Source: Bacteroidaceae bacterium (GTDB lineage Bacteria; Bacteroidota; Bacteroidia; Bacteroidales; Bacteroidaceae). From it: a stretch of 59,723 nucleotides of DNA. The stretch covers positions 1-59,723 of the forward strand of contig JAGAQH010000004.1 of NCBI GenBank assembly GCA_017622815.1. The letters are read 5' to 3'. The notes below the pieces were generated by a model. It saw nothing but the letters and a program-made list of their open reading frames with translations, searched no databases and had not been told where the DNA came from. Positions 1 through 25,690 of this stretch are shown here, one piece after another (the first letter of the stretch is position 1; each line of letters begins with the position of its first letter). Position numbers and translations under genes: made by a program.

Positions 1-222
1 CAAGTTTCAAGTTTCAGGTTTCAGAGTTTCAAGTGTCCACCAACCTTATTCCTCCAAGTAGGGACACGGCATGCCGTGTCCGAAACACCCACTACGTCAT
101 CCTTTGCATTGGCGGACACGGCATGCCGTGTCCCTACAAGTTGATGTTGCCCTCTGTAATCCGTCATCTGTACTCTGTACTCTGTACTCTGTACTCTGTC
201 ATCTGTACTCTGTACTCTGCCC
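1..222. repeat. Intergenic repeat mosaic at window edge
   Basis: This gene-free stretch starts with TTTCAAG/TTTCAGG heptamer repeats (1-33). A flank found again at other copies (CCAACCTTATTCCTCCAAG) follows, then an 80-bp paired-palindrome element (58-137), then a microsatellite-like run of TCTGTACTC/TCATCTGTACTC units (about 148-229). The run stops only at the 3' end of the minus-strand gene ending at 223. The same three modules recur in the same kind of spacer at 10.2, 15.4, 20.9 and 25.4 kb. Confidence 0.85.
58..137. repeat. 80-bp paired-palindrome element, copy 1
   Basis: Two copies of the perfect 20-bp palindrome GGACACGGCATGCCGTGTCC (62-81 and 114-133) start exactly 52 bp apart. They are bounded outside by GTAG and CTAC, so the whole element is itself inverted. 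The 32-bp spacer reads GAAACACCC...TTGGC, and the same spacer ends are seen at the other copies in either orientation. There is no T-run, so it is not a standard terminator. Its function is unknown. Confidence 0.9.
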
Positions 223-762
223 TCACCAGTTAACGACATAGTGCTGCCTATTCAGGTCCTTCCGTGCAAAGGCGATACCCACATCATAGAGGTCGAAGGT
301 AACGGTGACACGCTCGTCCTCCTTTATCCGTTTCCAGAACCCACGGCACTTGTCCTTGTCTTTCAGCACCAGCATTGTCCCCTCGCCCACATGAGAGAGG
401 GCCTCTTCGTCTTTGCCGTCCACGAAGACCATATCCGCCACGTCCTTAGTACCACGGGGCAGTATTCTCACGCCATTGTTCCCGTATTGGCAGGCCTCCC
501 GCAATGCTTTGTCAAGTCCTTCACAATACATTGTTTGCGGGCGATGATAGTTGGACAACCTGAAAGCCAGATGTCTCAGGCTCCTCACCCTCCACTTCTG
601 CCACCAGTGCAAGTCCTTGTCCATCTCCGTGTAGGCATAATATTCCTCCTTGTTGTACAGCACATTCGTCACAAGGTCAAAGGCAAACGGCGAGTGTACT
701 CCGTAGCCCTTTCTCTTGCGGACGCGCATCAACCACACTATGGGACTTTGAAACAACATCAT
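223..762 (-). CDS. Conserved hypothetical, truncated methyltransferase-like family
   Basis: A 179-residue protein. It contains a GYGVHSPFAF motif near the N-terminus and ends with a DVGIAFARKDLNRQHYV segment. From memory, both are features of a Bacteroidetes family sometimes annotated as SAM-dependent methyltransferase. I do not see a complete SAM-binding glycine-rich loop, so it is probably a shortened and perhaps non-catalytic relative. The start is uncertain: ATG at 762 (followed by a second ATG at 759) lies only a few bases below a TATCTTTG box (771-778), so the transcript would be nearly leaderless. ATG at 726 would leave a more usual leader and still keep the HSPF motif. Repeats begin straight after the stop. 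Function not assigned. Confidence 0.7.
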   Translation of the reverse strand: MMLFQSPIVWLMRVRKRKGYGVHSPFAFDLVTNVLYNKEEYYAYTEMDKDLHWWQKWRVRSLRHLAFRLSNYHRPQTMYCEGLDKALREACQYGNNGVRILPRGTKDVADMVFVDGKDEEALSHVGEGTMLVLKDKDKCRGFWKRIKEDERVTVTFDLYDVGIAFARKDLNRQHYVVNW

Positions 763-770
763 ATCTCTCA

Positions 771-778
771 CAAAGATA
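771..778 (-). promoter_or_regulatory. Bacteroidetes -7 box, TATCTTTG
   Basis: TATCTTTG on the minus strand, directly upstream of the gene ending at 223. The distance to ATG 762 is so short that either the message is nearly leaderless or translation starts at 726. Confidence 0.6.
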
Positions 779-894
779 CACAAAAAGAGGAAGCGGAGAA
801 AGAAACAGGGCGACTTTTGTTTTCCAATATGTTAATCTCTGTTAAAAGGACAGCAAATCTAACGCGCGTATATAATAATGTGCGCATAATTCCC

Positions 895-902
895 TACCTT
901 TG
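895..902 (+). promoter_or_regulatory. -7 box TACCTTTG and long leader of giant paralog 1
   Basis: TACCTTTG lies about 150 nt upstream of the ATG at 1055. The resulting leader of roughly 147 nt ends in an AT-rich stretch (TTAACTAACCTAATTATTA then CCAAACAACAAAACATTT) that is nearly identical before paralog 2 and recognisable before paralog 3. The 784-1054 spacer contains nothing else I recognise. Confidence 0.6.
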
Positions 903-1054
903 TCCCTCAAAGGGTGCTTTGTATCCGCAAAGGATTGGTGGCAAGGATGCCGCCGCACACACCCAGGAGAGAGAGTGGAACACATTATTTATTATTAAAA
1001 GACATCAACAACATTATTAACTAACCTAATTATTAACCAAACAACAAAACATTT

Positions 1055-4000
1055 ATGAAAAAGATTACTTCTTTTTTGATGATGGTTGTATTGTGCTGTG
1101 TTGGCGCGTTTGCTCAGGAGTCAGTAGGTACTGAACTCCCCACAGACAAGCTGATTACCATTGGTACAGCACAGGGCGAGATGGTGCCTGGCAAGTGGTA
1201 CTTCCTGCACAATCCCCGCAACCCCAACCAGAACGCAGAAGCATTCGCAGAGGTTGGCGGAACCATCACCACCGCAGGTGGCTTGGTAACAGACATGGGC
1301 CTTGGCTCACATGTAAAGCTGACTGCATCATCAGTAATTGACGAGGTTACAAACCCCGAAGGCGTAAACGCCAACAATTACATGGCAAACCTTGTTCGCT
1401 TCGTTGCCGTTGAAGGCGAGGAGGGCGCTTACAACATCCAGTTCGGTACTGGCAACTGGTTGGCAGACGCCCCCGGCAGCGGTACCGTGAACAACAACAA
1501 CTACATTGCAGGCAACGCAGGTAAGTACAATTTCTACCTCGTAACCATCGGTGGTGTTCCCAACACCGCTGGTCGCTTCGCATGGAACAAGTACAACATG
1601 GCTAACCGTGTGGACAACAACGGTGCCGGCGGTACTGTTGTATTCTGGGCTGAAGGTGAGACTACCGGCGAGGACGGTGGCTGGACTACCGACGCCGACA
1701 TCAAGGGTAACAAGATCTGGCAGATCTACGACATTCTCGTTGTAGGTGAGACCGACGTTTACATGGAGGCCATCAATGCCCTGATCGAGGACTACACCAC
1801 CATCACCGGATTCCAGGAGGGTGCTTTCATCGACAACCTGCTGGCTGGCCAGAACGTAGGTGAAAAGCCCGGCAACTATCGTCCCGAGGACGTTAACGCA
1901 TTCATGGAAGTACACAACAAAATCGACGAGCTGATGTACACCATGGAGATGGAAGGCATCGAGGCAATCCAGGCTCTGTACCCCACCGTTGAAGACGTGG
2001 AGAAGCTGAACGAGGATTACGTTGGTGCTTACAACCACATGATTGAAAACCGTGTTCCCCTGGCTATGACAGGTGTTAAGCCCGGTTACTACACCTTCAA
2101 CAGCTGTCTGTTCTGGTATGTCAACAAGAACGACAGCACTTTCTACACTCAGGAAGAAGCTGACTCTGTAAATGCAGAAAGCGGCTTGGTAGAAGGCGAC
2201 GAGGGTTGGATCAACGCTGGCGACGTCAAGGAAGTTACCACACGTCAGGCTGCCGCTCCCATCAAGTCTCTGTACTCTGCTCCTGCTCAGGGCAACGATG
2301 GCGCTATGGCAGATTGGATGGCATGGGGTACCCAGCAGCCCAAGGCTGAGTTCCTGTGGAAGGTTGAGGCCGTAGAGGGCAAGCCCTATGAGTACCGCAT
2401 GCTCAACGTGGCAAACGGCAAGACCCACGTCAGCATTGGCCAGAGCAGCAATTCAAAACTGGCGCTCAACGACACTGCTACCGTATGCTTCGACTGGAGA
2501 AGCAATGAGGAGGCTGTCAAGTATGCCGATGCAGAGGGCAACGAGGTAAACGACACCGTTGTTTCATTCAATATCCGTAGCTCTAACCAGCCCGAGAGCA
2601 ACTACAACTATCTGCACTGTGGTGGCCACAGCGGTGGTGCCGGCACAGGTGCTTGGATTGTAGGTTGGTCAGACGGCGGTGCCACACGCTGGTACATGGT
2701 TCCCGTGGACGAGGCAACTGTTGAAAATTGGATTAACGGTCCCGAGGCTCAGCTCCGCAAGAAGATCGAGAAGGGTGACAGCATCGCTGCAGTATCTCCC
2801 TCTCAGATTGAGATTGCCAAGGATATCGAGACTACCATCTACGACACCGACTCTGTTGTAGTAACTGCCGACCAGTTCTACAGCCAGTACACCACTGAGG
2901 ATGCTCAGACCATTCCCGAGGGCCAGACCGTTTACGACTTCATGCTCGACGGCAAGCAGAGCACATACTGGCACAGTAAGTGGGAGAATGGTGCTGTAAA
3001 CGCTAAGGTTCACTACCTGCAGATCCACGCTACCGAGACCATGGATGGTCTGTATGCCGTTAAGTTGCAGCGTCGTCCCGTTTCTGGTGACCACATCACC
3101 GAGTTGATCGCTGTTGGTTTCGTAGACGAACCCACCGACGAGACAGTATTCGCTGACGGTAAGGAACTGGGTACTCTGAAGTTGCCTCTGACTGCAAATG
3201 ACGAGACCGTGGTTACCAACACCTTCGATGCTACCGGCATGAACTACGTACGCTTCTACTCTAACTCTACCGCAGCTGCTGCTTCTGGTGGCGGTGCAGG
3301 TCATGGCTACTGGCATGCTTCTGCATTCAACGTGTTCAAGGCAAGTGCCGCTCCTCGCTACGAGACCACTCAGTACGATGTCCGCAAGACCGAGGCCGAG
3401 GCTCTGGCTGCTGCCGTTGCTACTTGGAACGAGAAGGGCTTCACTGCTGACTCTCTCGATCTCATCGAGGATCCCACCTTCGCTGCTGCTTACGAGGCTC
3501 TCGTAGCTGCATACGAGGCTTGGAGCAAGGTTTACGTTGATCCCACAGAACTCCGTAACGTTATTGCTTCTGCTCCTGACAAGAACCTGTTCGTATATGG
3601 TAAGAACCCCGGCCAGTGGCCCGAGACACGTTCTGCAAGCAACACTCCCGAAGAGTACCTCGCAGTATTGGCAGAGGCTAATGCCTACAACGCTGCCGGT
3701 GCTTACACTCCCGCAGAATCTGAAGCTAAGGTTAACGCTCTTCAGGGCGCTATCGACGGTGTATTCGCTTCTGCCAACAAGATCGAGACTGGCAAGTGGT
3801 ACCGCTTCAGCTTCGCTACTGAGGAAATGTACGACAACTACGGTTGGAACAAGGATGGTTCTAAGGCTTCTGAAAATGCTGCCGGCATAACAATCTCTCC
3901 CGCACTGTGGGGCAAGACACTTGCTGTTGGTAAGACTCTGACATCATACGCTACCTTCGAAAACGAGGAGGGCGAGGTTGACACTGTTGCTACCTACTCT

Positions 4001-5107: not shown

Positions 5108-5117
5108 TTACTGATAC

Positions 5118-5135
5118 ATAAGGTCTATACCTTAT
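5118..5135 (+). other. Conserved 3' UTR hairpin, paralog 1
   Basis: A perfect 7-bp inverted repeat (ATAAGGT-CTAT-ACCTTAT) sits 10 nt after the stop. The same hairpin occurs at the same distance after paralogs 2 and 3 (10101-10118, 25169-25186). It is unchanged in all three copies, so it may be an mRNA processing or stability element. Confidence 0.6.
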
Positions 5136-5145
5136 ATTATAACGA

Positions 5146-5177
5146 CCGCCCTGCCCCACAAAGGCAGGGCGGTTTTT
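5146..5177 (+). terminator. Rho-independent terminator of paralog 1
   Basis: A 10-bp GC-rich stem (CCGCCCTGCC / GGCAGGGCGG) with a 7-nt loop followed by TTTTT. It is sequence-identical after all three giant paralogs. Confidence 0.9.
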
Positions 5178-5650
5178 GTGTGGTATAAGAGGGCAGGCTT
5201 AAGGTTTCAAGTTTCAGGTTTCACGTATTAGGTGTCCGCTTACTTTCTCCCCCTGAGACAGGGGGAGTACCCGCAGGGGGAGGGGGTATGATATAAACGG
5301 AAAACGGAAAGTGAAATGTGAAATGTGAAATGTGAAATGTGAAAGATACATCATACCCCCTCCCCACTTCGTGGTACTCCCCCTGTCTCAGGGGGGAGAA
5401 AGTGGACGGAATATAGATGACAGATAACAGATAACAGAGTACAGATGATAGCTTGTAGGGACACGGCATGCCGTGTCCGCCAAAATAAAATATGGCATCG
5501 TGGATGTTTCGGACACGGCATGCCGTGTCCCTACTTGGAGGAATAAGGTTGGTGGACACTTGAAACTCTGAAACTTGAAACTTGAAACCTGAAACCTGAA
5601 ACCGGGCTCCCAGCCCTCTGAAACCTGAAACCTGAAACTTGAAACCACCT
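5178..5650. repeat. Intergenic repeat mosaic between giant paralogs 1 and 2
   Basis: Gene-free. In order: TTTCAAG/TTTCAGG units (5207-5224); the CCCCCTGAGACAGGGGG hairpin module with its GGAGGGGGTATG tail (about 5243-5290); GGAAAAC and GAAATGTGAAA short repeats (5298-5345); the hairpin module again in reverse (about 5349-5402); ACAGATAACAG microsatellite (5415-5450); an 80-bp paired palindrome (5455-5534); and a run of GAAACTTGAAACC units (5561-5645). From 5651 to 5824 I see only an 8-bp inverted repeat (5701-5708 / 5749-5756). Confidence 0.85.
5455..5534. repeat. 80-bp paired-palindrome element, copy 2 (reverse)
   Basis: The 20-bp palindrome occurs at 5459-5478 and 5511-5530, 52 bp apart, with GTAG and CTAC outer ends. 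The 32-bp spacer runs GCCAA...GTTTC, the reverse orientation of copy 1. The outer flank CTTGGAGGAATAAGGTTGG is the reverse complement of the flank before copy 1. Confidence 0.9.
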
Positions 5651-5824
5651 CAAATCCAACAAGCGAGAGAATGACTTACAGAAGCCCTGTTAAGGCTACT
5701 GGATAACGCTATCTTTTACGTTTTGGCCTTATGCAATAAGTTTCAAGCCGTTATCCGCATTATAAAATGTGTAAATTAGCAGAAAAAAATGGAAAGAATT
5801 TCATTAGGTTTTCCTCAAAATTCA

Positions 5825-5832
5825 TATCTTTA
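5825..5832 (+). promoter_or_regulatory. Probable -7 box TATCTTTA and leader of giant paralog 2
   Basis: TATCTTTA, one base from the TATCTTTG consensus, lies 157 nt before the ATG at 5990. It predicts a leader of about 150 nt, similar to that of paralog 1. The last 45 nt before the ATG are nearly identical to those of paralog 1. Confidence 0.5.
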
Positions 5833-5989
5833 CACCGCAAAATGCGTATTGTGTCTATAAAATACACACGAAAACATACGGCACGATTGTCCTGCGGAGG
5901 CATATACCTTATATATAATATATATAGGAAACAACATAAGAACATAACTATTAACTAACCTAATTATTAACCAAAACATCAAAACATTT

Positions 5990-10090: not shown

Positions 10091-10100
10091 TTACTGATAC

Positions 10101-10118
10101 ATAAGGTCTATACCTTAT
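10101..10118 (+). other. Conserved 3' UTR hairpin, paralog 2
   Basis: The ATAAGGT-CTAT-ACCTTAT inverted repeat, identical to the one after paralog 1 and at the same distance from the stop. Confidence 0.6.
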
Positions 10119-10128
10119 ATTATAACGA

Positions 10129-10160
10129 CCGCCCTGCCCCACAAAGGCAGGGCGGTTTTT
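10129..10160 (+). terminator. Rho-independent terminator of paralog 2
   Basis: The same 10-bp CCGCCCTGCC stem, 7-nt loop and TTTTT as after paralogs 1 and 3. Confidence 0.9.
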
Positions 10161-10241
10161 GTGGGGTATAAGGGGGGGGGAGTTTCAGGTTTCAAGTTTC
10201 AGGTTTCAAGTTTCAGGTGTCCACCAACCTTATTCCTCCAA

Positions 10242-10321
10242 GTAGGGACACGGCATGCCGTGTCCGAAACATCCACGATGCCATATTTTGCTTTGGCGGA
10301 CACGGCATGCCGTGTCCCTAC
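10242..10321. repeat. 80-bp paired-palindrome element, copy 3
   Basis: Palindromes at 10246-10265 and 10298-10317 (52 bp apart). The spacer is GAAACATCC...TTGGC, in the orientation of copy 1. Its upstream flank (ACCTTATTCCTCCAAGTAG) is also shared with copy 1. Confidence 0.9.
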
Positions 10322-10603
10322 AAGTTGATGTTGCCCTCTGTAATCCGTCATCTGTACTCTGTACTCTGTCATCTGTTATCTGTCATCTGTATTTCGTCCA
10401 CTTTCTCCCCCTGAGACAGGGGGAGTACCACGAAGTGGGGAGGGGGTATGATATAAACGGAAAGCGGAAAACTCATCGCTCACCTTTCACCTTTCATAGT
10501 TCTTTACATACCCCCTCCGCCCTGCGGGCTCGTCCCCCTGACTCAGAGGGACAAAGTTGGCTGGGGGAGGGGTATGACACAAGGTCAGGTTAAAGTGTTG
10601 GCA

Positions 10604-10682
10604 GTAGGGACACGGCAAGCCGTGTCCGAACACCCATGGTATCATCTTTTGCATTGGCGGACACGGCATGCCGTGTCCCTAC
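10604..10682. repeat. 79-bp paired-palindrome element, copy 4 (imperfect left arm)
   Basis: Palindromes at 10608-10627 and 10659-10678, 51 bp apart. The left arm carries one change (CAAG in place of the central CATG). The spacer has lost one base but keeps the GAACACCC...TTGGC ends. Confidence 0.85.
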
Positions 10683-10777
10683 AAGTTGATGTTACCCTCT
10701 GTACTCTGTCATCTGTACTCTGTCATCTGTACTCTGTCATATGTACTCTGTCATCTGTACTCCCGACAACCCACTTT

Positions 10778-10886
10778 TGTTGTCCTTGAGAACAGAGGCG
10801 AGTCACCGAGGGTGACAGGGACGAGTCACCGAGGGTGACAAGGGCGAGTCACCAAGGGTGACAAGGACGAGTCGTCGGGGACAACA
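10778..10886. repeat. 23-bp tandem array of small palindromes
   Basis: GTCACC-N3-GGTGAC units start at 10802, 10825 and 10848, exactly 23 bp apart. A decayed fourth unit is at 10871. The array is enclosed by TGTTG (10778-10782) and CAACA (10882-10886). Each unit could form a 6-bp hairpin in RNA. The layout recalls the 22-bp arrays at 40446 and 51368. Function unknown. Confidence 0.8.
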
Positions 10887-11267: not shown

Positions 11268-11328
11268 CACTCGGAAACGAAAAACAATGAACGTTCACCA
11301 ACAGTCGCTTTCCAAAAATGTCTGACTC

Positions 11329-14413: not shown

Positions 14414-14433
14414 GCAAGAAACAACATCTAAAC

Positions 14434-15150
14434 ATGAACATACAGGACAGAATAGTCAAAACCATCATCGTCATCCAAGAAGCAGGCCAGGGCCTGACAC
14501 GCGAACAACTTCAGGCCATTCTCCTCGGCAACGAGACAGAGGAACTGCAGGCTCTGGAACTGGACCAGCTGGAGTCCTTCGGTATCGCCGAAGGCATGGA
14601 CGAGGAGGACTGGAACTCCATCTTCGACCGCGCCATAGAAGAGGGACTGCTGAAGATAAAGAACCAGAAACAGCATACACTCACATACACCCCTGAGGGA
14701 AAGAAGTTCCGCAAGAAACCCAAAGCCATCATCCTTGGCGACGGTACCGATGAGGATGATTACGTGGGCGTTGGCGACGACGAACTGGACGCCGTCATGC
14801 GCAACGCACTCAACGAGAAACGCGAAGAGGCGGCAGGACATCTTACCAGCGAACGAAGCAAGAGACAGATAAAACTCATCCGTGCCATAGACCGCAAAAT
14901 AGCGTTGGACGACTTCGCCGAGAACGAGAATGTGGACCTGAACGACGTTCTGGACGAACTGGAAACCATGCTCCAGCATGGCAAGCGTATGGACATAACA
15001 TATTTCACCGACGAAGTCCTTGGAAAAGAGGATGTAGAGGACGTGCGCATGAGCATGGGGCCCAATCCCGACATGAATGCACTGCGCCAGGAATGGGGCG
15101 ACGTTTACAACGAAGAGGAACTCCGCCTACTGCACTACATTTTGTCTTAG
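14434..15150 (+). CDS. RecQ C-terminal-like helix-turn-helix protein
   Basis: 238 residues, very acidic, no signal peptide. The N-terminal part (1-95) looks like a winged-helix region ending in TYTPEGKKF. The C-terminal part (about 145-200: IKLIRAIDRKIALDDFAE, DLNDVLDELETMLQHG, ITYFTDEVL) resembles the helix-turn-helix tail I know from Bacteroidetes RecQ helicases (IDRK.PL.DIA, LLDEIEAIV.SG). There is no helicase domain here, so this is a free-standing version. A role in DNA or RNA binding or helicase partnering is inference. It follows the transferase by 20 nt and is probably cotranscribed. Confidence 0.6.
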   Translation: MNIQDRIVKTIIVIQEAGQGLTREQLQAILLGNETEELQALELDQLESFGIAEGMDEEDWNSIFDRAIEEGLLKIKNQKQHTLTYTPEGKKFRKKPKAIILGDGTDEDDYVGVGDDELDAVMRNALNEKREEAAGHLTSERSKRQIKLIRAIDRKIALDDFAENENVDLNDVLDELETMLQHGKRMDITYFTDEVLGKEDVEDVRMSMGPNPDMNALRQEWGDVYNEEELRLLHYILS

Positions 15151-15945
15151 ATTACAGATTACAGATTACAGAGTACAGAGAATAGAGTATAGAGTATAGA
15201 GAAGGTGAAAGGTGAAAGGGGGAGTTCCCGTTTTCACCTTTCACCTTTCCGTTTGTAAAATATCCCCTCCGCTTCGCTCGTCCCAACGTCGCAATGGGGA
15301 TAACCGTAGGGACACGGCATGCCGTGTCCGCCAAGGCAAAGGATGATACCATGGGGGTTCGGACACGGCATGCCGTGTCCCTACAAGTTAATGTTATCAT
15401 CTGTCATCTGTACTCTGTACTCTGTTATCTGTACTCCATCCACTTTCTCCCCCTGAGACAGGGGGAGTACCACGAAGTGGGGAGGGGGTATGTAAAAAAA
15501 CTATGAACGGTGAGCAGTGAGCGGTGAGTTTTCCGTTTACATCATACCCCCTCCCCCTGCAGGTACTCCCCCTGTCTCAGGGGGAGAAAGCAAGCGGACA
15601 CTTGAAACCAGAAACTTGAAACCAGAAAGCATCCCCCACCAACTTTGTCCCTCTGAGTCAGGGGGCAAAGAGGGTCTTTAGAGGAATGACTGAATGTCAT
15701 TCTGTGCCCTCTGAGGGTCGCACTCCCCAGTGCGACGTTGGGTAAGGCGAAGCGCGGAGGGGGTATGTAAAGAACTATGAAAGGTGAATGGTGAGCGATG
15801 AGTTTTCAGTTTTCCGCTTTCCGTTTATATCATACCCCCTCCCCCTACGGGTACTCCCCCTGTCTCAGGGGGAGAAAGCAAGCGGACACTTGAAACATGA
15901 AACCTGAAACCAAATTGCCCCCCAGGAACATCAAGTTCTTACCTC
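15151..15945. repeat. Intergenic repeat mosaic before the M60 gene
   Basis: Straight after the stop at 15150: ACAGATTACAG/AGAGTATAGAG microsatellite (15151-15205), GGTGAAAGG and TTTTCACC units (15205-15255), a CCCTCCGCTTCGCTCG block shared with 20.36 and 25.57 kb, paired palindrome copy 5 (15306-15384), microsatellite (15390-15440), hairpin module (about 15438-15491), reversed hairpin modules (about 15541-15592 and 15832-15880), and a longer divergent module (15650-15770) carrying an ATGACTGAATGTCAT small palindrome that recurs near 20.83 kb. No gene. 15946-16058 is plain AT-rich sequence. Confidence 0.85.
15306..15384. repeat. 79-bp paired-palindrome element, copy 5 (reverse)
   Basis: Palindromes at 15310-15329 and 15361-15380, 51 bp apart. 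The 31-bp spacer is GCCAAG...GGTTC, the reverse orientation. GTAG and CTAC ends are present. Confidence 0.9.
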
Positions 15946-16058
15946 CGGGAAGGAAAGAAAAGGCATCCTCAAAGCAATGAAAAACAGACATAATAACAAT
16001 AAATGCTAAAACATGAAACAAAAAGAAAAAAAAACGCAATTATTAGAGATATTATCAA

Positions 16059-16066
16059 TATCTTTG
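16059..16066 (+). promoter_or_regulatory. -7 box TATCTTTG for the M60 peptidase
   Basis: TATCTTTG 33 nt before the start codon region, predicting a leader of about 28 nt, much shorter than those of giant paralogs 1 and 2. Confidence 0.75.
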
Positions 16067-16099
16067 CCTCGGCAATAGTATACACAAACGAACAAAACC

Positions 16100-19000
16100 A
16101 TGCCTATGAAAAAGAAACTTTTACTTTCCCTGACGGGACTATTGGTGTGTTTGGTTGCATTGGCACAAACACCCACGAGAAACAAGTATTACCGTATCGT
16201 GAATGCGAGTTACGGTTCTGTAATCAATGAGAACTGGGGCGAAGGAACCGTATCCTGTATTGCCAAGAACGAGGCAGAACTCAGCCAGGTATGGCAGTAC
16301 ACAGCAGCAGGTGCACTGAAAAACGTGTACACCGGCAAGTACCTGCAGGACCAGCCCAACATGTCTACAACCTTCGTTACGGGAACTGCAGCACAGCCTG
16401 TAACCTTCACAAAAAAGAGTGACGGACATCTGACCATCGCCACACTGAACACCCACTACCTGCACTGCGACGGTGCAAGAAACGTGGTATACTGGTGGGA
16501 TGCAGAAACCGAACCCAGCCACTGGACTGTGGAGGAAGTTTCCCTGACAGCCGACGAGATTGCTGCTGCACAGGAAGAGTATGAGACTCTGACAAGCCTG
16601 ACAAAGAACGCAAGCAAGTACACTGAGGCCTTGACTATCTTCTTCACCAACGAACTTTGCACAGAACTGAAGGCTGAATATGCTGCAATGGCCGACGATG
16701 CTCTGAAGGCAGCCATGGCCGAAGCCGGTCTGCCCACTATGCTGCAGGACATTGCCGTAAAGGTGAAGAACCAGTGGTGGAACGATACCGACAAGAGCAA
16801 GTATGCTGACGAGAACATATATGCCAAGGACTTCCGTGTGGCTTCTTACCAGCCCTACTCTGATGCCAACAACTGGCGCGACAAGATGAACACATACGCC
16901 CCCAACTTCATGGGTAACCCCACAGGTATCTATGCAGCAAACGGCAAGGAGATTATCCATGTGTTCGTGGGCAGCGATATCCCTGAGGGTTCTACCCTGT
17001 ATCTGACCCCCGTACGCAACCATGGCCGCATAGGCTCACGCAGCGAGGGCACAGAGTTGAAAAAGGGTTACAATGCCGTTATCGGCACACGTGACAGCCT
17101 GGTATACTTTGTAAACTATGTAGTAAATACAATACCTACAACGGATGTCAATGCAAAGACCGAAACTATAGCCAAGATCAGCGACTTCCCTAACCTGGAC
17201 ATCCACATCGAAGGCGGTCAGTGCGTAGGTTACTATCAGAAGCCTGCCGAGAACACTCTCGAGGAGGACGAGAAGTACAAGTACCTCATAAACAACGCCA
17301 ACGACGGAATGTACTTCATGGTAAAGGGTGCCACTTCACTGTTCTACTTCAAGAAGTACACTTACACCAAGCATTTCTCAAAGACAATCTGGAACAGCAT
17401 CAACTGGTTTGACCGTTTGCACTTCTGGGAGTTCAGCATTATCGGTGTATTGGACGATGTGGCCAACGGCAAGTGCGAGAACGGTACAGAATTCTCCAAG
17501 GCCGCATATCCATTGAACATAAAGGGTGGTGACGCATGGTATCCCACATACTGCAACAACCCCACCATGGCAATGGAAGGTCCTAACGGACAGAACCCCC
17601 ACGCTACCACATTCTATACCAGCTATCCCGGTGATGGCGGTGTGGAGAGTTCTTTCAATGCCGAGCGTGCCAACTTTGACAACTGGTGTGCTGGCCACGA
17701 GCACGGACACCAGATCCAGGGTGCATACAACCTGGAGTCTTGCTCCGAGTCATCTGTAAACCTGCCCTCAAACATCATCACCTACCTGACTGGTTTCCGT
17801 CTGGGACGTGGTTGGAACTTTGAGCAGAACTATGCATACGTGGCTGAAAACAAGGTATTTGGTCTACGCGATATCAGCATCACCATGCGTATGTACTACA
17901 ATCTGTTCCTCTACTACCACATCGGTGGCAAGAAGAAGGACTTCTACCCCACTTTCGTAAAGAGCCTGCGCGAGGATCCCATGGACTTCTCAAGAGACGG
18001 CGTACAGTACGAACATCCCGAGTGGGGCGCACCCAGCGGAGGTCATCACCGTGCTGTCAACACATGGATTAAGTTCTACAAGAAGGCATGTGACGCTGCT
18101 CAGGAAGACCTGACTGAATACTTCCGTATGTGGGGTTTCTTCGTTCCTTGCGACAAGGAATACTTCGGAGACTATACCAGCTATGCCGTTTCACTGACTC
18201 AAAAAGAAATTGACGCTGCTATCGCTGAGGTAAAGGCAAAGGGTTATCCCGAAAACCTGCAGATAATGTTCGTAGAGGACCGTCAGATTCCTCGTGAGCG
18301 TACTGATATCTGGGCACACACTGCTACAGGCAGTCAGAAATATAAGCCCACAAACTGGGAAGCATGGTACACAGAAGAACAGTTAAGAGCAGAATATGGC
18401 GACGTAGGTGACATCCTTACGTATATTGACGGTAGCGCAAACACCAGTCAGTACACATACATCCTTAGCGGAAACAAGGTTTCTCTGAGCGGTAAAGGCG
18501 GTGTTGGCTTCATCGTTTACGACAAGGATGGCAACAACGTGTACATGAGCAATAGATACAAATTTGAGATACCTGCAGAAGTAGCGGCAAACGGCTTTAC
18601 CATCAAGTGTATCAATGCCGACGGTACAAGTTCTGTAGTAGCCAACGGTGCTGATTCTGCTACCGACGAAGAGAAGCTGGCTATCCTAAAGGCTGCCATT
18701 GAGGCTTCAAAGGCTTTCACAAGCCTGGAAGATGCCACAGGCAAGAAGGTTGGTTTCTACAGCAGCGAGGACCTCGCTGTACTGAAGGGCTATGTGACCG
18801 ATGCCAACACTGCAATAGCAGATAAAAACGTTGACGCATACATTGCACTGGCAGACAACATCAACAAAGAAATCCTGAGACTGCAGAGCGAAAACTGCAT
18901 GAAGCAGATAATTCCAAATGGCATATATCATATTGCATGCGTACGTAAGGTAAGTGGCGCAACACGTTATCTGTCTGCAACAACAGCTGACGGCTTTGAA

Positions 19001-20194
19001 ACCAAGACCTCAAACAACAACATCAGCCGCTGGGCATTCGTTCCCACCGGAGAGGAGAACGTCTACTACCTGCAGAACAGACAGGCTGGCAAGATGATGG
19101 GTGCTATTCTGAATGAGAAGGGTGGCGTTGACAACGTAAAGATGGTAGAGGCAGACCCTGAAGTAGCTTGCACCGTGAAAGTGGAATCGCTGGGTGGCGG
19201 TAAGTTTGGCATCAGACCCAAGGACAACACATACCTGAACATGCACAATCAGGGCTACATCACAGTATGGGGAAGCGCCGACGAGGGTTCGCAGTGGTAC
19301 ATCCATGAATACGAGACCTTCGAGGAACTTACCGACGAGAAGATGAACGGACTCGTTGGCATGACAGAGGATCTGATAAACGACGTCTGCGACTACAGCA
19401 TCACCACTAACAAGTACAACTTGCAGTGTACCGATGCATCACAGCCCGCATACATCTCAACAAACCAGCCCGATAGCGAAAGACCCACCAACCAGATAGA
19501 GAAGGCCATAGACGGCAACAGAACAACATTCTTCATGAGCAACCGAAGCAACAACAATGCAACGGAGCCTCACCATCTGAAGGTTGACCTGGGCAGTGGA
19601 GTCTCTACACAGTGCCTGAACTTCTACATGTACGGCAACAGCACATGGAACTATGCTACCGCCGTCGACGTATATGCAAGCAACACCAACACTTCTTGGA
19701 CAAAGGTTGCATCCATCCAGGGAATGAAGGTTGCATATACCAGCGACATGCTCAAGGCAAGCACAAAATACCGTTACTGGAGATTTGACGTTGTTGCCAC
19801 AACCGGCCAATACACTGACAATTCGGACTATCCCTGGTTTACTGTAAAGGAATTCGAACTCTACGAGAACATCGAGAACATCGAGATGAAGCCCGGCTTC
19901 GAGAGCATCACAAAGACGATGATCACAAACTGCAAAAACGGTATCTCCGGTGTAAAGAGCGAGATGGGCAAAACCTTCAGAACCATGCTCGGCGACTACA
20001 TCGTATGGACAAAGTTGAACAGTTACTACAACAACCTGTACAACAGGGCTTCTGTTATCGATCCCACAGTGGACATCAACGACATAGAGGCTGACGGCAA
20101 CGCCGACGGCACTATCTACGACCTCTCTGGCCGCAGAGTGAAGAAGACCGACAACGGCATCTACATCATCAACGGCAAGAAAGTTGTAAAGTAG
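16100..20194 (+). CDS. M60-family (enhancin/mucinase-type) metallopeptidase, secreted
   Basis: 1364 residues. Signal peptide (about 1-22, ending ALA-Q); an N-terminal beta-trefoil (ricin-like) region (about 22-150); a linker helix; then the M60-like peptidase (about 240-740) with the zinc motif HEHGH at His533, Glu534, His537. Next come a low-complexity Asp/Ala region, a second ricin-like region (about 935-1080), an F5/8 type C domain (about 1110-1255, QIEKAIDGNRTTFFMS) and a sorting-like C-terminus (IYDLSGRRVKK...GIYIINGKKV). M60 enzymes from gut Bacteroides cut mucin-type glycoproteins. The flanking lectin-like modules would hold it on glycans. Either ATG 16100 or ATG 16106 could be the start. 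It is unrelated over most of its length to the giant paralogs on both sides but shares their module style. Confidence 0.88.
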   Translation: MPMKKKLLLSLTGLLVCLVALAQTPTRNKYYRIVNASYGSVINENWGEGTVSCIAKNEAELSQVWQYTAAGALKNVYTGKYLQDQPNMSTTFVTGTAAQPVTFTKKSDGHLTIATLNTHYLHCDGARNVVYWWDAETEPSHWTVEEVSLTADEIAAAQEEYETLTSLTKNASKYTEALTIFFTNELCTELKAEYAAMADDALKAAMAEAGLPTMLQDIAVKVKNQWWNDTDKSKYADENIYAKDFRVASYQPYSDANNWRDKMNTYAPNFMGNPTGIYAANGKEIIHVFVGSDIPEGSTLYLTPVRNHGRIGSRSEGTELKKGYNAVIGTRDSLVYFVNYVVNTIPTTDVNAKTETIAKISDFPNLDIHIEGGQCVGYYQKPAENTLEEDEKYKYLINNANDGMYFMVKGATSLFYFKKYTYTKHFSKTIWNSINWFDRLHFWEFSIIGVLDDVANGKCENGTEFSKAAYPLNIKGGDAWYPTYCNNPTMAMEGPNGQNPHATTFYTSYPGDGGVESSFNAERANFDNWCAGHEHGHQIQGAYNLESCSESSVNLPSNIITYLTGFRLGRGWNFEQNYAYVAENKVFGLRDISITMRMYYNLFLYYHIGGKKKDFYPTFVKSLREDPMDFSRDGVQYEHPEWGAPSGGHHRAVNTWIKFYKKACDAAQEDLTEYFRMWGFFVPCDKEYFGDYTSYAVSLTQKEIDAAIAEVKAKGYPENLQIMFVEDRQIPRERTDIWAHTATGSQKYKPTNWEAWYTEEQLRAEYGDVGDILTYIDGSANTSQYTYILSGNKVSLSGKGGVGFIVYDKDGNNVYMSNRYKFEIPAEVAANGFTIKCINADGTSSVVANGADSATDEEKLAILKAAIEASKAFTSLEDATGKKVGFYSSEDLAVLKGYVTDANTAIADKNVDAYIALADNINKEILRLQSENCMKQIIPNGIYHIACVRKVSGATRYLSATTADGFETKTSNNNISRWAFVPTGEENVYYLQNRQAGKMMGAILNEKGGVDNVKMVEADPEVACTVKVESLGGGKFGIRPKDNTYLNMHNQGYITVWGSADEGSQWYIHEYETFEELTDEKMNGLVGMTEDLINDVCDYSITTNKYNLQCTDASQPAYISTNQPDSERPTNQIEKAIDGNRTTFFMSNRSNNNATEPHHLKVDLGSGVSTQCLNFYMYGNSTWNYATAVDVYASNTNTSWTKVASIQGMKVAYTSDMLKASTKYRYWRFDVVATTGQYTDNSDYPWFTVKEFELYENIENIEMKPGFESITKTMITNCKNGISGVKSEMGKTFRTMLGDYIVWTKLNSYYNNLYNRASVIDPTVDINDIEADGNADGTIYDLSGRRVKKTDNGIYIINGKKVVK

Positions 20195-21075
20195 TGAGGA
20201 CAGAGGACAGAGGACAGATAACAGAGTACAGAGTACAGATAATAGAGTACAGAGTACAGAGTACAGAGTACAGATAATAGAGTACAGATAATAAGATAAG
20301 GTGAAAGGTGAAAGGGGGAGTTCCCGTTTTCACCTTTCACTTTTCCGTTTTAACATACCCCCTCCGCTTCGCTCGTCCCAACGTCGCAATGGGGATAACC
20401 GTAGGGACACGGCATGCCGTGTCCCTACTTGGAGGAATAAGGTCCGCGGACACTTGAAACGTGAAACGTGAAACCTGAAAGCCCCCCACCACCAACTTTG
20501 TCCCTCTGAGTCAGGGGGCAAAGTAGATGGACACCTGAAACCTGAAACCCCCAAGCAAGCCCCCAGCCCACTTTCCTCCCCTAAGTTAGGGGCGAACTGG
20601 ACCGAAGAGGAAGCGCTAAATGCGCTTCTGTGTCCAAGTGAGGGGAGCACTCTCCAGTGCGACGCGAGGACATTGGCCCGAAGGGCGGAGGGGTCTGTAA
20701 AAGATAGAACGGTGAGAGGCGAGAAGTGGCGCTAAGTTTTCCGCTTTCCGTTTACATCATACCCCCTCCGCCCTGCGGGCTCGTCCAACGTCGCACTGGG
20801 GAGTGCTCCCCTCAGAGGGCACAGAATGACATTCAGTCATTCCTCTAAAGACCCTCTTCGCCCCCTATCTTAGAGGGACAAAGTGGATGGACACCTGAAA
20901 CCAGAAACTTGAAACACAAAATCTGCCCCACCTCCCACCCCCTCTGCCATCTGTACTCTGCCATCTGTACTCTGCCATCTGTACTCTGTCATCTGTACTC
21001 TGTTATCTGTACTCTGTTATCTGTACTCTGTTATCTGTACTCTGTCATCTGTACTCTATCATCTGTACTCTATCT
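20195..21075. repeat. Intergenic repeat mosaic after the M60 gene
   Basis: GAGGACAGAGGACAG and AGAGTACAG microsatellite directly after the stop (20196-20295), with no terminator in between. Then: the CCCTCCGCTTCGCTCG block and a solitary palindrome (20401-20428), TTTGTCCCTCTGAGTCAGGG modules (20500-20525), an ACTTTCCTCCCCTAAGTTAG module (20570-20600), a reversed copy of the 15.65-kb module (about 20755-20890), and about 130 nt of TCTGTACTC/TTATCTG/TCATCTG units (20948-21075), the longest microsatellite in the window. 21076-21155 is AT-rich and featureless. Confidence 0.85.
20401..20428. repeat. Solitary 28-bp perfect palindrome (collapsed pair)
   Basis: GTAG + the 20-bp palindrome + CTAC forms a single 28-bp perfect palindrome. 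It equals the left outer end of a pair joined to the right outer end. That is the expected product if the two 20-bp direct copies of a pair recombine and lose the 52 bp between them. Confidence 0.85.
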
Positions 21076-21155
21076 CCTTCATCTTTAGCATTTCATATGC
21101 ATGTTGTAAAACATTATATCACAAGAGGAATGCTGTAGTATTCATCCTTTTTTCT

Positions 21156-21163
21156 TATCTTTA
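21156..21163 (+). promoter_or_regulatory. Probable -7 box TATCTTTA of giant paralog 3
   Basis: TATCTTTA, the same one-base variant as before paralog 2. Leader of about 84 nt, ending in the shared AACAACAAAACA-TTTATG-type start region. Confidence 0.5.
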
Positions 21164-21252
21164 CCATGCGTAGTACGCGAATTACACGCGCATTGCGCCC
21201 AATAGAGAATACCTAACCATAACCAATTTTTAACCAAAACAACAAAACACTT

Positions 21253-24200
21253 ATGAAAAAGATTACATCTTTTCTTGTAATGATGGTGTTATGCTGTGTC
21301 AGCGCCTTCGCCCAATTCGACGAAGCGTTAACTCCAGTTACTGATCTCGAGCAACTGAGTGACGATGCAGTTTACACTATCCACAGTGAAAGAACCTTCC
21401 TGTTTTACAGCCCAGCCGTGCCCGGCCAGATTGCATCCGGTAACGGTAAAGTTGTTGGTAATGTAAGTTGGAATCCCTTCGATGCCAACCAGCAGTTCAG
21501 CATCAAAAAGATTGAGGACAAGTACTACCTCTACAGCCTTGGTGCAAAGATGTATGTCAACGATGGTGGCGCCTATGGCGAGAATCCTGTGACAGAATTC
21601 AAGATTATGACCTCCCTGAGCGAGGAATACCCCTGGTTCCTTGGTCTGGGTAACAATTTCCTGAACTCTCAGGGTGCCGGTCAGACAGACGCCGGTATCG
21701 TGATAAACACCTGGGGTGCTAATCAGGCTGCTCAGGAAGATGCCGGTAACCACTACAACATCTATGCAGTGGACATGAGCCAGTTCGACCCCTATCAGAT
21801 GGCATTTGACGCCCTTATCGAGGACTACAACACAATTACCTCCTACTCGGAAGGTGCTTTCATCGACGAGTTGAGAGAAGGCAAGAATGTTGGCACAAAG
21901 CATGGCAACTACCTTCCTGAGAACGTGGAGGCATTCCTGACCATCCACGATAATATCGACAACCTGATGTACCAGATGGAAATGGAGGGCATAGAGGCCA
22001 TCCAGGCTCAGTATCCCACCGTTGCCGACATTGAAAAGTTGAACGAGGACTACGTGAACGCCTACAACACCATGGTGCAGAACACTGTTCCTCTGGCAAT
22101 AAGCGGCATCCAGCCCGGTTACTACACCTTCAACAACTGTTTGTTCTGGTACACCACCAAGAAAGATACCGTTCGCTACACTCAGGTAGAGGCTGATTCT
22201 ATCAATACAGAAAGCGGCCTGGTAGAGGGCGACGAGGGTTGGATCAATGCAGGTGACGTCAAGGAAGTCAACTCTTCTCAGGTTCCTGCCCCCATCAAAT
22301 CTCTCTACTCCGCTAGCGCTCAGGGCAACGATGGCGCGACGGCAGATTGGATGGCATGGGGTACCCAGCAGCCCAAAGCCGAGTTCCTGTGGAAGGTTGA
22401 GGCCGTAGAGGGCAAACCCTATGAGTACCGCATGATCAACGTTGCCAACGGCAAGACACATGTCAGCATTGGCCAGAGTGCAAACTCTAAACTGGCACTC
22501 AACGACACTGCTACCGTATGCTTCGACTGGAGAAGCGATGCCGAAGCTGTCAAGTATGCCGATGCCGAGGGCAACGAGGTGAACGACACCGTTGTTTCAT
22601 TCAACATCCGCAGTTCAAGCCAGGCTGAAAACGGTTACAACTATCTGCACTGCGGCAGCCACAGCAGTGGTGCCGGCACAGGTTCCTGGATTGTAGGTTG
22701 GTCTGACGGCGGTGCCACACGTTGGTACATGGTTCCCGTTGACGAGGCTACAGCAGAGGAGTGGATCAATGGTCCCGAGGCTCAGCTCCGCAAAATGATA
22801 GAGAAGGGCGACAGCATTGCTGAGGCATTCCCCGCTCAGCTGGAGGTTGCCAAGGATCTGGTCGCTAATCTGGACACAACCGTCAATGTTGCCAATATCG
22901 AAACATTCAGCAGCCCCTACCACTGCCCCGCAGAAGGCAACATGGAGCAGCTCTTCGACGGCACCTACAACAACACCGGCAATTTCTGGCATTCTAACTG
23001 GCAGAACGGCAATGACTATGCCTACAGCACTACCAACGGCACAAACTACTTCGTGGTAGAAGACGTTGACAAAGCAATCAATGGCGGTCTGGCCGTTATG
23101 GTTGCACGCCGTCCCGTGGCTAACGACCACCTGACTCAGCTGACCGTTTACGGTACCAACGACGCTTACAGTCCCGAGGACGATCTGGCCAACATCAAGG
23201 CCGGTGGCGAGGCCCTTTACACATGGACTGAGCTTGGTGTCCTGAATACTCCTTACGGAACAGGCAGTGAGTTCATCACTTCTAATGCCATCGAGTTTGA
23301 AGGTCAGTACCAGTACTACAAGTTCGTGGCTACAGGTACCACCAACAACCGCGGTTACTTCCACATGGGCGAGTTCGCTCTCTATCCCGCCAAGATCACC
23401 AAGCGTTACGCAACCACTCAGTACGATGCCCGCAAGGCACAGGCTGATGATCTGGAGGCTGCTGTCGCTGTTTGGGAAGAGAAGGAATTTGCTGCCGACT
23501 CTCTCGCACTGCTCGAGGATCCCACCTTCACTGCCGCTTACGAAGCACTCGTAGCTGCTGCCGATGCATGGGGTAAGGTATTCGTTAATCCCACCGCACT
23601 CCGCGACGAACTCTCTGCAGCTCCTGCCAAGAACCTCTTCGTATATGGCAAGAACCCCGGCCAGTGGCCCGAGACACGTTCTGCAAGCAGCACTCCCGAA
23701 GAGTACCTCGCAGTATTGGACAAGGCTAACGCCTACAACGCTGCCGGTGCTTACACTCCCGCAGAATCAGAGGCTCACATCAAGGCCCTCCAGGAGGCTA
23801 TCGACGGTGTATTCGCTTCTGCCAACAAGATTGAAACTGGCAAGTGGTACCGCTTCAGCTTCGCTACTGAGGAAATGTACGACAACTACGGTTGGGACAA
23901 GACCGGTTCTAAGGCTTCTGTGAACGCTGCCGACATCGTAACATCTCCCGCACTGTTCGGCAAGACCATTGCAGTTGGTAAGAGTCTGGTTACATACGAG
24001 ACCTACGATAACGCCGAGGCAGCACGTGTTGATACTGCTACCGTACGTTCTATCGAAGCTACCGAGGAATGGTACGAGGGCGACAACCTCTGCTTCTTCG
24101 AGGATGCTGACTTCAGCGAGGGCGAGGATCTGTTCCAGTTCATCCAGGCTACCGATTCTTCTTACATAATCCAGAACAAGGCTACCGGCCTGTTCGTACG

Positions 24201-25158
24201 TGCCGGTCACCCCGTAACTCTGAGTGCCGTTCCCAGCTACTTCAGCGCCAATAAGGCTATCGGTGCAGGTGCAAACCTGATTGCTTACACCGACGTTCTT
24301 GGTAAGACCGACGGCCAGCACATTTACCTGCACGGTGAGCGTTCTACCAACTACCTGACCAAGTGGAATGCCAGCACTATCGGTTCTAACTCTATGATCT
24401 TCATCGAGGAGGTTGAGGCTGTTACCGAGGCTCCCACTACCGAGTACGCTGCCAAGTTGTGGCCCGGTAAGGTTTACACCTACACAATGCCCGTTGACGT
24501 AACTGTTACCGATGGTGCTACCGCTTACGGTGCTGAGTTGGTTATCGCCGAGGAGGATACCGCTATCGTTCTGAAGGCTATCGAGGCTGAGACTATCAGC
24601 GCAGGTACTCCCTTCATCCTGATTGCTAACCTCGAAGGTGAATACAAGACCACCAGCGACCGCCTGAAGGAAATTGCCGCTGAGGTTCTCGCCGATAAGG
24701 GCCAGTACGGTCTGAACGAGAAGCAGGAGGCTAACACCAAACTGAACGACGAGTATGCTATCGTTAATATGGAGCACGGCATGGAGGTTGACACTGTTGT
24801 TACCGAGCTGCTGAGCCTGCGTGGTACTATGAACGGCATTACCGTTCAGCGCGGTAAGGGTATCGTTGCAAACGAAAACACCTTCAAGTATGCTCGTCTC
24901 GATGCCAACGTAAGCAGTTACAGCGCATGGATTGCCTTTGACTTCGAGCCCGATAGCGAGAGCGTAATATCTGGTCTGACTATCAACATCGAGGGTAGCA
25001 TCGACACAGGTATCAACGAGGTTCTCGACAAGGTTGCCAAGTCTGGTAACATCTACAACGCTGCCGGTCAGCTCGTAGGTAAGGGTAACATCAACACCGT
25101 AAACAGCCTGCCCGCAGGTATCTACATCGTAAACGGCGTTAAGGTTACAAAGAAGTAA
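21253..25158 (+). CDS. Giant secreted multidomain protein, paralog 3 of 3
   Basis: 1301 residues. The signal peptide (1-20) is like the other two, but residues 21-180 are a different lectin-like domain (FLFYSPAVPGQ, YYLYSLGAKMYV) unrelated to the N-terminal domains of paralogs 1 and 2. From about residue 185 on it aligns with them throughout. Residues about 345-450 (GNDGATADWMAWGTQQPKAE) follow paralog 1. The F5/8-like domain (about 551-716) follows paralog 2 with long identical DNA runs. Residues about 1190-1255 follow neither. The last about 50 codons and the terminator match both. No catalytic motif. This is a mosaic relative whose N-terminal binding domain has been replaced. Confidence 0.85.
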   Translation: MKKITSFLVMMVLCCVSAFAQFDEALTPVTDLEQLSDDAVYTIHSERTFLFYSPAVPGQIASGNGKVVGNVSWNPFDANQQFSIKKIEDKYYLYSLGAKMYVNDGGAYGENPVTEFKIMTSLSEEYPWFLGLGNNFLNSQGAGQTDAGIVINTWGANQAAQEDAGNHYNIYAVDMSQFDPYQMAFDALIEDYNTITSYSEGAFIDELREGKNVGTKHGNYLPENVEAFLTIHDNIDNLMYQMEMEGIEAIQAQYPTVADIEKLNEDYVNAYNTMVQNTVPLAISGIQPGYYTFNNCLFWYTTKKDTVRYTQVEADSINTESGLVEGDEGWINAGDVKEVNSSQVPAPIKSLYSASAQGNDGATADWMAWGTQQPKAEFLWKVEAVEGKPYEYRMINVANGKTHVSIGQSANSKLALNDTATVCFDWRSDAEAVKYADAEGNEVNDTVVSFNIRSSSQAENGYNYLHCGSHSSGAGTGSWIVGWSDGGATRWYMVPVDEATAEEWINGPEAQLRKMIEKGDSIAEAFPAQLEVAKDLVANLDTTVNVANIETFSSPYHCPAEGNMEQLFDGTYNNTGNFWHSNWQNGNDYAYSTTNGTNYFVVEDVDKAINGGLAVMVARRPVANDHLTQLTVYGTNDAYSPEDDLANIKAGGEALYTWTELGVLNTPYGTGSEFITSNAIEFEGQYQYYKFVATGTTNNRGYFHMGEFALYPAKITKRYATTQYDARKAQADDLEAAVAVWEEKEFAADSLALLEDPTFTAAYEALVAAADAWGKVFVNPTALRDELSAAPAKNLFVYGKNPGQWPETRSASSTPEEYLAVLDKANAYNAAGAYTPAESEAHIKALQEAIDGVFASANKIETGKWYRFSFATEEMYDNYGWDKTGSKASVNAADIVTSPALFGKTIAVGKSLVTYETYDNAEAARVDTATVRSIEATEEWYEGDNLCFFEDADFSEGEDLFQFIQATDSSYIIQNKATGLFVRAGHPVTLSAVPSYFSANKAIGAGANLIAYTDVLGKTDGQHIYLHGERSTNYLTKWNASTIGSNSMIFIEEVEAVTEAPTTEYAAKLWPGKVYTYTMPVDVTVTDGATAYGAELVIAEEDTAIVLKAIEAETISAGTPFILIANLEGEYKTTSDRLKEIAAEVLADKGQYGLNEKQEANTKLNDEYAIVNMEHGMEVDTVVTELLSLRGTMNGITVQRGKGIVANENTFKYARLDANVSSYSAWIAFDFEPDSESVISGLTINIEGSIDTGINEVLDKVAKSGNIYNAAGQLVGKGNINTVNSLPAGIYIVNGVKVTKK

Positions 25159-25168
25159 TTACTGACAC

Positions 25169-25186
25169 ATAAGGTCTATACCTTAT
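25169..25186 (+). other. Conserved 3' UTR hairpin, paralog 3
   Basis: The ATAAGGT-CTAT-ACCTTAT inverted repeat, as after paralogs 1 and 2, with only one base changed just upstream (GACACAT for GATACAT). Confidence 0.6.
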
Positions 25187-25196
25187 ATTATAACGA

Positions 25197-25228
25197 CCGC
25201 CCTGCCCCACAAAGGCAGGGCGGTTTTT
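25197..25228 (+). terminator. Rho-independent terminator of paralog 3
   Basis: The same CCGCCCTGCC stem, 7-nt loop and TTTTT as after paralogs 1 and 2. Confidence 0.9.
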
Positions 25229-25318
25229 ATTGTGGTATAAGGTTTCAGGTTTAAGGTTTCAGGGAGCAGGTTTCAAGTTTCAGGTTTCAGGTTTCATGCT
25301 TCACGTTTCTGGGAGCCA

Positions 25319-25385
25319 CTGCCGTGTCCGCCAATGCGAAAGATGACGTCGTGGATGTTTCGGACACGGCATGCCGTGTCCCTAC
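25319..25385. repeat. Paired-palindrome element, copy 6 (left arm eroded)
   Basis: Only the right half of the left palindrome remains (GCCGTGTCC, up to 25329). The 32-bp spacer and the right palindrome (25362-25381) with CTAC end are intact. Confidence 0.8.
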
Positions 25386-25610
25386 CGCCAACACTTCGCC
25401 TTTGAGCTTTCTATTTTCACCTCCTCTGCCCTCCGTACTCTGTCATCTGTACTCTGTACTCTGTTTCTGTACTCCACCCTCTTTCTCCCCCTGAGACAGG
25501 GGGAGTACCACGAAGTGGGGAGGGGGTATGATGTATCTTTCACTTTCCGTTTTCCGTTTATATCATACCCCCTCCGCCTCGCTCGTCCCAACGTCGCAAT
25601 GGGGATAACC

Positions 25611-25690
25611 GTAGGGACACGGCATGCCGTGTCCGCCAATGAAAAGGATGATACCATGGGTGTTTCGGACACGGCATGCCGTGTCCCTAC
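25611..25690. repeat. 80-bp paired-palindrome element, copy 7 (reverse)
   Basis: Palindromes at 25615-25634 and 25667-25686, 52 bp apart. Spacer GCCAATG...GTTTC. The upstream flank (CAATGGGGATAACCGTAG) is shared with copy 5 and the solitary palindrome at 20401. Confidence 0.9.

Follow-up and report, generated by a model that had tools for sequence, protein, structure and literature searches.

Paired palindromes in the window

The window, by which we mean the whole 59,723-nt stretch of DNA that was analyzed, belongs to a 2.57-Mb MAG that is 88.22% complete. Its repeated elements sit between long ORFs, which were read as genes. Three of these genes are large (about 4 kb) and paralogous, as seen from direct repeats offset by about 4,970 and 15,070, and are adjoined by the elements; none of the three had a Pfam match at 1e-5. 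The large ORF at 16100-20194 carries M60 peptidase and F5/8C domains (Pfam), and an Rfam scan of the window at gathering scores returned only a tRNA. Two other kinds of repeats were observed. Arrays of 7- and 14-bp units (CTGTACT and AGAGTAC types) lie near the paired elements between the large genes, at positions 148-224, 5394-5460, 15135-15215, 20188-20310, 20883-21092, and 25758-25932, and a second repeated palindrome (CTCCCCCTGAGACAGGGGGAG) occurs in several intergenic regions, at 5233-5292, 10391-10450, 15433-15492, 25471-25530, 30495-30554, and 31445-31504.

A preliminary description of this DNA reported a 20-bp palindrome that recurs in pairs, and both the pairs and their coordinates proved to be correct. 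The 20-bp core was found 15 times in the window at up to 3 mismatches (14 exact copies and one with 1 mismatch), compared to a mean of 0.00 in 100 dinucleotide-preserving shuffles of the window. We refer to the paired elements as REPINs (REP doublets that form hairpins) and to their arms as REPs, in keeping with the interpretation developed below. Six pairs are complete, with core start-to-start distances of 52, 52, 52, 51, 51, and 52. The first, at 58..137, has its arms at 58-81 (+) and 114-137 (-), and one of these arms is eroded at the same site (L129) in a second genome, that of Bacteroidaceae bacterium RGIG4159 (G541). The second, at 5455..5534 (arms 5455-5478 and 5511-5534), carries its spacer in the orientation opposite to that of the element at 58. 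The remaining four lie at 10242..10321 (core distance, 52), 10604..10682 (core distance, 51), 15306..15384 (core distance, 51), and 25611..25690 (core distance, 52). An eroded pair had also been suspected near 25310/25362, and comparison of the repeat family within the window confirmed the eroded partner at about 25306-25325; this decayed REPIN spans 25306..25385 and retains an intact right arm at 25362-25385.

Two details required amendment. The palindrome had been called perfect in every pair, but the core at 10608, in the left arm of its REPIN, has one mismatch (GGACACGGCAAGCCGTGTCC). Similarly, the spacer end GAAACAYCC is present in the 52-bp pairs but is one base shorter in both 51-bp pairs (GAACACCC at 10604 and GAACCCCC at 15306). 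Two copies had been overlooked: a REP singlet at 27639..27662 (+) and a single palindrome with both GTAG and CTAC ends at 20401..20428. The latter has the "double foot" form of REP described in PMC6006769 (section 12) and is probably a collapsed REPIN; the only other double-foot copy in the DNA scanned from this genome is at L084:1528.

Arm anatomy and distribution of the family

The window's own assembly contains 73 exact cores and 102 oriented arms of the form GTAG-core-G at up to 2 mismatches (100 among the matches listed). We analyzed the window together with 52 stretches surrounding arms, and these together contain all 73 exact cores. The cores were picked without regard to the adjoining foot, and GTAG was located outward on 71 of the 73. 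Each arm consists of 5'-GTAG followed by a stem of 20 nt that is self-complementary, and in a doublet the GTAG of either arm faces out. Stem pair 5/16, which was left free in the search pattern, was Watson-Crick in 105 of 108 arms (A-T in 82, T-A in 17, and G-C in 6), and 1061 of 1080 stem cells overall were paired, a total that is partly built in by the search pattern. The stems thus vary in a compensatory manner, and one site (L050/L190) differs by a paired change between this genome and that of RGIG4159. When folded as single-stranded DNA, one 52-bp element (REPIN 5455..5534; -35.7 kcal/mol, z -11.68) and one 38-bp element each formed a single long hairpin.

Neighboring arms less than 70 bp apart were arranged head-out in 33 of 33 pairs; two further sets of neighbors within 150 bp, one "++" at 87 bp (L085) and one "-+" at 111 bp (L090), were not counted as pairs. 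Doublets accounted for 66 of the 107 arms and singlets for the other 41, and the singlets were barely less perfect than the doublet arms (33 of 41 perfect, versus 57 of 66). Many of the singlets have the appearance of doublets that decayed or collapsed. The search for arms started from the A-type core, and the counts for other arm families are therefore too low. Greedy ORFs of at least 150 aa, used in place of gene-caller predictions, made up 77% of the DNA examined, and 87 of the 107 arms fell outside them.

The family has a narrow distribution. With N allowed at the variable pair, the arm had no match in any of 150 other genomes sampled from the family, 8 of which were from the same genus, and within a sample of the phylum it was present in only 1 of 394 other genomes, as a single 28-bp double-foot copy (GTAGGGACACGGCATGCCGTGTCCCTAC) in a genome from another family (G228:C16:325452-325479; L099). 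A scan for paired elements was also conducted in genome_contigs, which is described as covering 84,980 species and from which records near the window's own genome may be left out. It yielded two further carriers: RGIG4159, from roe deer colon, with 61 arms at up to 1 mismatch, and RGIG7679 (G542), from water buffalo rectum, with 4 arms at up to 1 mismatch. The concern that the element might exist in this one assembly only was thereby removed, as the family is also present in two other MAGs. We infer that RGIG4159 belongs to the same genus as the organism from which the window derives, because a genome assigned to that genus (G651) has the RAYT gene described below at identical contig coordinates and with 100% identity. 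Among 72,556 plasmid records, none matched the one 81-base element that was compared (window 5455-5535), and one REP arm each was seen in two contigs of the IMG/VR viral collection (L150 and L151). No published description of this REP sequence was found in the literature searched, a search that covered text outside tables and supplements.

A RAYT gene linked to the arms

A weak match to the Pfam Y1_Tnp profile (E 0.023) in the RGIG4159 contigs corresponded to an ORF within a REP cluster, and it was this position that allowed the ORF to be recognized as a RAYT gene. The ORF (L117:5303-5911, - strand) encodes 202 aa, or 183 aa from the second ATG. As a protein it scored 26.3 bits against Pfam Y1_Tnp (cut-off, 23) and matched NCBIfam REP_Tyr_transpos NF047646 with an E value of 1.1e-15 and 57.7 bits, which is below the cut-off of 80. 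It contains the motifs PNHFH (HuH), WQPR, and YIDNN (Tyr), and the NF047646 domain is interrupted by an in-frame REP that encodes DTACRVPT and is located between the HuH and WQ motifs. The 8-kb locus holds eight GTAG hairpins, and the same REPs flank the gene. A single-sequence structure prediction for this protein was poor (pLDDT 44.6) and was kept out of the evidence.

Relatives of this RAYT were found in 28 of 399 family genomes at an E value of 1e-10 or better. These represented 30 distinct loci, of which 29 were analyzed (G736 C32 was left out), and 27 of the 29 had at least two related GTAG hairpins, the exceptions being L220 and L229. By the same rule, which permits loops of up to 8, none of 30 loci carrying other Y1 transposases (Y1_Tnp) had them; with loops of up to 10, GTAG hairpins were seen at two of these comparison loci (L021 and L038). 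None of the 30 matched the RAYT by tblastn at an E value of 1e-4. In the 28 RAYT loci other than L117, GTAG started a hairpin at 111 of its 633 occurrences, compared to at most 2.2% for seven other feet. The nearest RAYT (L207, 54%) is accompanied by GGACACGG stems, as is one of the six hairpins at L208 (56%), and the distant RAYT loci have GGGC or AGACGC stems. Distances between REP stems and between RAYT proteins were correlated over 27 loci (rho 0.53, with 0 of 2000 permutations as high), a value that is uncorrected for host phylogeny and leaves co-evolution and common ancestry of the hosts undistinguished. REPs also lay within the RAYT genes themselves. Of 28 scorable loci, 17 (L117, L207, L208, L210, L212, L216-L218, L221-L227, L231, and L232) had a REP positioned between the HuH and WQ motifs, some of these loci having inverted pairs there, and REPs between the HuH and Tyr motifs kept the reading frame in L117 and in 16 others of these 28.

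The preliminary description proposed looking for a transposase whose gene always accompanies the element. Such a gene lies amid the REPs of RGIG4159, but the Pfam and RAYT-protein searches, at their thresholds, found none in the MAG to which the window belongs (88.22% complete). One contig of this MAG, C39, matches RGIG4159 at 95% identity as far as the REPIN that adjoins the RAYT gene, and beyond the shared REPIN it continues for about 250 bp of other repeats before the contig ends. Because C39 ends beside the matching locus, the RAYT gene may be unassembled, moved, or lost. The gene next to RAYT was likewise not found in this assembly among the 40 of 215 candidates that were scored. The window's own organism presumably has, or formerly had, a RAYT.

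We consider it highly probable that the element is a REPIN, in which two GTAG-tagged REP hairpins form an inverted doublet of the BIME type, and that this non-autonomous miniature element is acted on, through its arms, by a RAYT (TnpA_REP, a domesticated HuH/Y1 transposase). The likeness to REP/BIME elements that was initially noted is borne out by the GTAG foot, the hairpin arms, the inverted doublets, and the many dispersed copies. The family is new and its kind is already known: it is a REPIN family with a RAYT in the Bacteroidaceae, the RAYT being that of RGIG4159. In the proposed mechanism, the arms would fold into hairpins as single-stranded DNA, the RAYT would read GTAG plus hairpin and cut near the foot, and it would then, on rare occasions, move or copy the doublet. 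Cleavage and copying of single-stranded DNA by the RAYT here are proposed by analogy, as TnpA_REP is reported to bind and cleave single-stranded DNA bearing GTAG hairpins (PMC8266576).

The comparisons with published systems that follow draw on portions of each cited paper. The REPINs of Pseudomonas fluorescens SBW25 (Bertels and Rainey 2011, PMC3116915) are like those described here in being inverted REP doublets with a linked RAYT, in having spacers less conserved than arms, and in having singlets that are viewed as remnants. Arm distance is lineage specific in both (71 bp for GI in SBW25 versus 37 to 63 bp here), whereas the arm sequence, the perfectly palindromic arms, and the Bacteroidaceae host differ, and REPIN excision has been reported in SBW25 but was not seen here (PMC3116915). 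The E. coli REP/BIME system and its TnpA_REP share the GTAG foot, the inverted REP pairs, and the same HuH/Y1 superfamily, but the E. coli REP stem is bulged and imperfect whereas the stem here is perfect (PMC8266576). The RGIG4159 RAYT is only remotely similar in sequence to the E. coli TnpA_REP, matching the structure 4er8 (TnpArep, PDB) weakly (E 0.0094). TnpA_REP subclass 2.4 comes close in several respects: Bacteroidetes are among its hosts, GTAG REPs flank the gene, and it has a WQ motif, frame-keeping REP insertions between the HuH and Tyr motifs, and double-foot REPs (PMC6006769). It differs in the stem bottom, which is GGA/TCC here (G-C, G-C, A-T) versus three G-C pairs in the subclass, and in the Tyr motif, which is YIDNNV here versus YIxNNP (PMC6006769). 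The Bacteroidaceae RAYT-REP loci thus appear to resemble subclass 2.4 in motif and REP layout, which is a likeness and not a placement in a tree.

The GTAG-tagged REP superfamily (Di Nocera et al. 2013, PMC3733652) likewise has an unpaired GTAG end, dimers in opposite orientation, and intergenic locations; its main text, with which we compared apart from the family tables, mentions Bacteroidetes solely in a list for the CGTC superfamily. Singlets have been described as decaying remnants and RAYTs as vertically inherited (PMC8049555), and by analogy the present family appears to fit published TnpA_REP/REPIN behavior. The family adds REPINs and a linked RAYT from gut Bacteroidaceae, to which the portions of the REP literature considered here give little coverage. 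Its stem subfamilies and spacing classes, and the two genomes that carry them, provide a usable system for the study of REP-RAYT co-evolution and of RAYT-internal REPs.

Spread, placement, and spacing of the copies

Sites in the window's own genome were compared to those of RGIG4159, where 37 of 72 could be tested. A script scored 20 of these with an arm and 17 without, and correction by alignment (adding L049 and L077) raised the shared sites to 22 of 37, a fraction that is not an unbiased rate because the RGIG4159 stretches were mostly picked for holding elements. Five sites that the script could not test were also shared in alignments (window 58, L047, L057, L085, and L094), and at L090 a single arm, but not the REPIN, is common to both genomes. 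An arm is shared by the two genomes at over half of the sites that could be tested, so that movement appears to be infrequent, and since the flanks are mostly more than 90% identical (90-99%), much of the inheritance appears to be vertical.

The two genomes also differ at individual sites. Elements are absent from aligned RGIG4159 sites, for example, at L052, L058, L062, L067, L080, and L093, and the REPIN at L048/L139 is represented in RGIG4159 by only a single arm. At one site (L089:1416-1481 versus L199 on contig C34 of G541), an ACTCGG/ACACGG REPIN in the window's own genome is matched by an RGIG4159 REPIN with GACGCTGCGTGCAGCGTC on both arms. At L080/L198 and L093/L200, a REPIN in one genome is matched by a non-REP hairpin in the other. 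The indels at L052 and L062 are clean, with about 117 and 159 bp gone, but they include flanking repeat, and none of the indels inspected was a REPIN-only empty site bounded exactly by GTAG and CTAC. The suggestion that the element is a mobile unit is supported by its anatomy, by its many dispersed copies, and by the cognate RAYT gene that these arms flank in RGIG4159, although the lack of a clean empty site weighs against it.

A larger dispersed repeat, R, was also observed, consisting of two halves (CTGCGAGTAAGCGAGAGC and GAGCGGGAGCAGATTCAAGACCGC) around a variable center. Copies occur at window position 54963 and at L052, L058, L062, L071, L072, L078, L080, L081, L090, and others. Both halves are present in 19 copies within the scanned DNA of the window's own genome, of which 9 have a REP or REPIN at the center and 10 do not; the non-REP centers of the latter (10 of 19 copies) are 16 to 27 nt in length, and many are hairpin-like.

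These features bear on whether duplication of genes or segments, along with recombination among larger dispersed repeats, was the only means by which the copies spread, without any transposase. The window elements adjoin the three paralogous genes, 9 of 19 R copies have a REP at the center, and the site differences between the two genomes include R flanks or swapped centers, all as this explanation would have it. We nevertheless regard it as unlikely, because in the sister genome REPs surround and even enter the RAYT gene, linkage recurs at 27 of 29 loci, REP stems track RAYT similarity, and REPs are also found in DNA that belongs neither to R nor to the gene cluster. Under the preferred interpretation of RAYT-dependent REPINs, duplication would still have a local part: within the window, the large paralogous genes and the 51- to 52-bp lineage adjoining them were probably amplified jointly, and recombination between inverted arms would flip the spacer. 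Duplication of gene plus element, combined with such recombination, could account for look-alike pairs carrying spacers in both orientations. There is also a slim chance that R serves as a docking site, at which hairpins are swapped in place by the RAYT or by R-templated recombination rather than inserted at random; if so, hairpin cassettes would be exchanged at fixed addresses in this clade.

Retention of the palindromes by selection on host genes, as transcription terminators or hairpins at mRNA ends, would agree with their mostly intergenic location and with the layout of adjacent genes. At the 48 sites with both neighbors known, 14 were convergent, 29 tandem, and only 5 divergent. Such a role nonetheless seems very improbable as the explanation of the family, given the paired architecture with GTAG outward, the copies inside RAYT genes at 17 of 28 scorable loci, the lack of elements at aligned sites of a near relative, and their presence in few genomes. 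A side role as an RNA hairpin is compatible with the elements being REPINs.

The preliminary description held the centers to be locked 51 to 52 bp apart, so that five turns of spacing would place both arms on one face of the DNA. Genome-wide, neither claim survived. The 33 pairs ranged from 37 to 63 bp: 17 had spacings of 37-39 bp (an ACACGG arm being paired with an ACTCGG arm in 15 of these), 5 of 44-49 bp, 9 of 51-52 bp, and 2 of 63 bp. As the 51- to 52-bp class comprises 9 of the 33 pairs, six of them in the window, five-turn phasing is unsupported. The 10.5-bp phase vector was 0.16 over the 11 distinct spacings and 0.44 over the 33 pairs, the higher value arising mainly because the 38-bp and 51- to 52-bp classes are large. 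Helical phasing was rejected on the basis of these genome-wide spacings. The idea that a double-stranded-DNA-binding protein contacts both palindromes on one helical face, with five turns selected, can be given hardly any credence: all six complete window pairs conform to it, the vector over all pairs is the higher one, and the arms show the perfect dyad symmetry that is common in sites bound by dimers, but the same arms also pair at the other distances, the vector falls over distinct spacings, 41 of 107 arms are single, arm subfamilies differ by paired changes that preserve the hairpin, one arm is eroded in RGIG4159 at the site matching 58-137, and a binder of dyads has no need of an outward GTAG.

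Random spacing across the genome had been put forward as evidence against a unit that is selected or mobilized, and the outcome was intermediate, with discrete spacings tied to spacer lineages. The 38-bp and 51- to 52-bp classes each have their own recurring spacers, and the spacing of 51 to 52 bp is a trait of one REPIN lineage with a conserved spacer, which illustrates how a conspicuously constant spacing within a single window can reflect lineage history and not mechanism.
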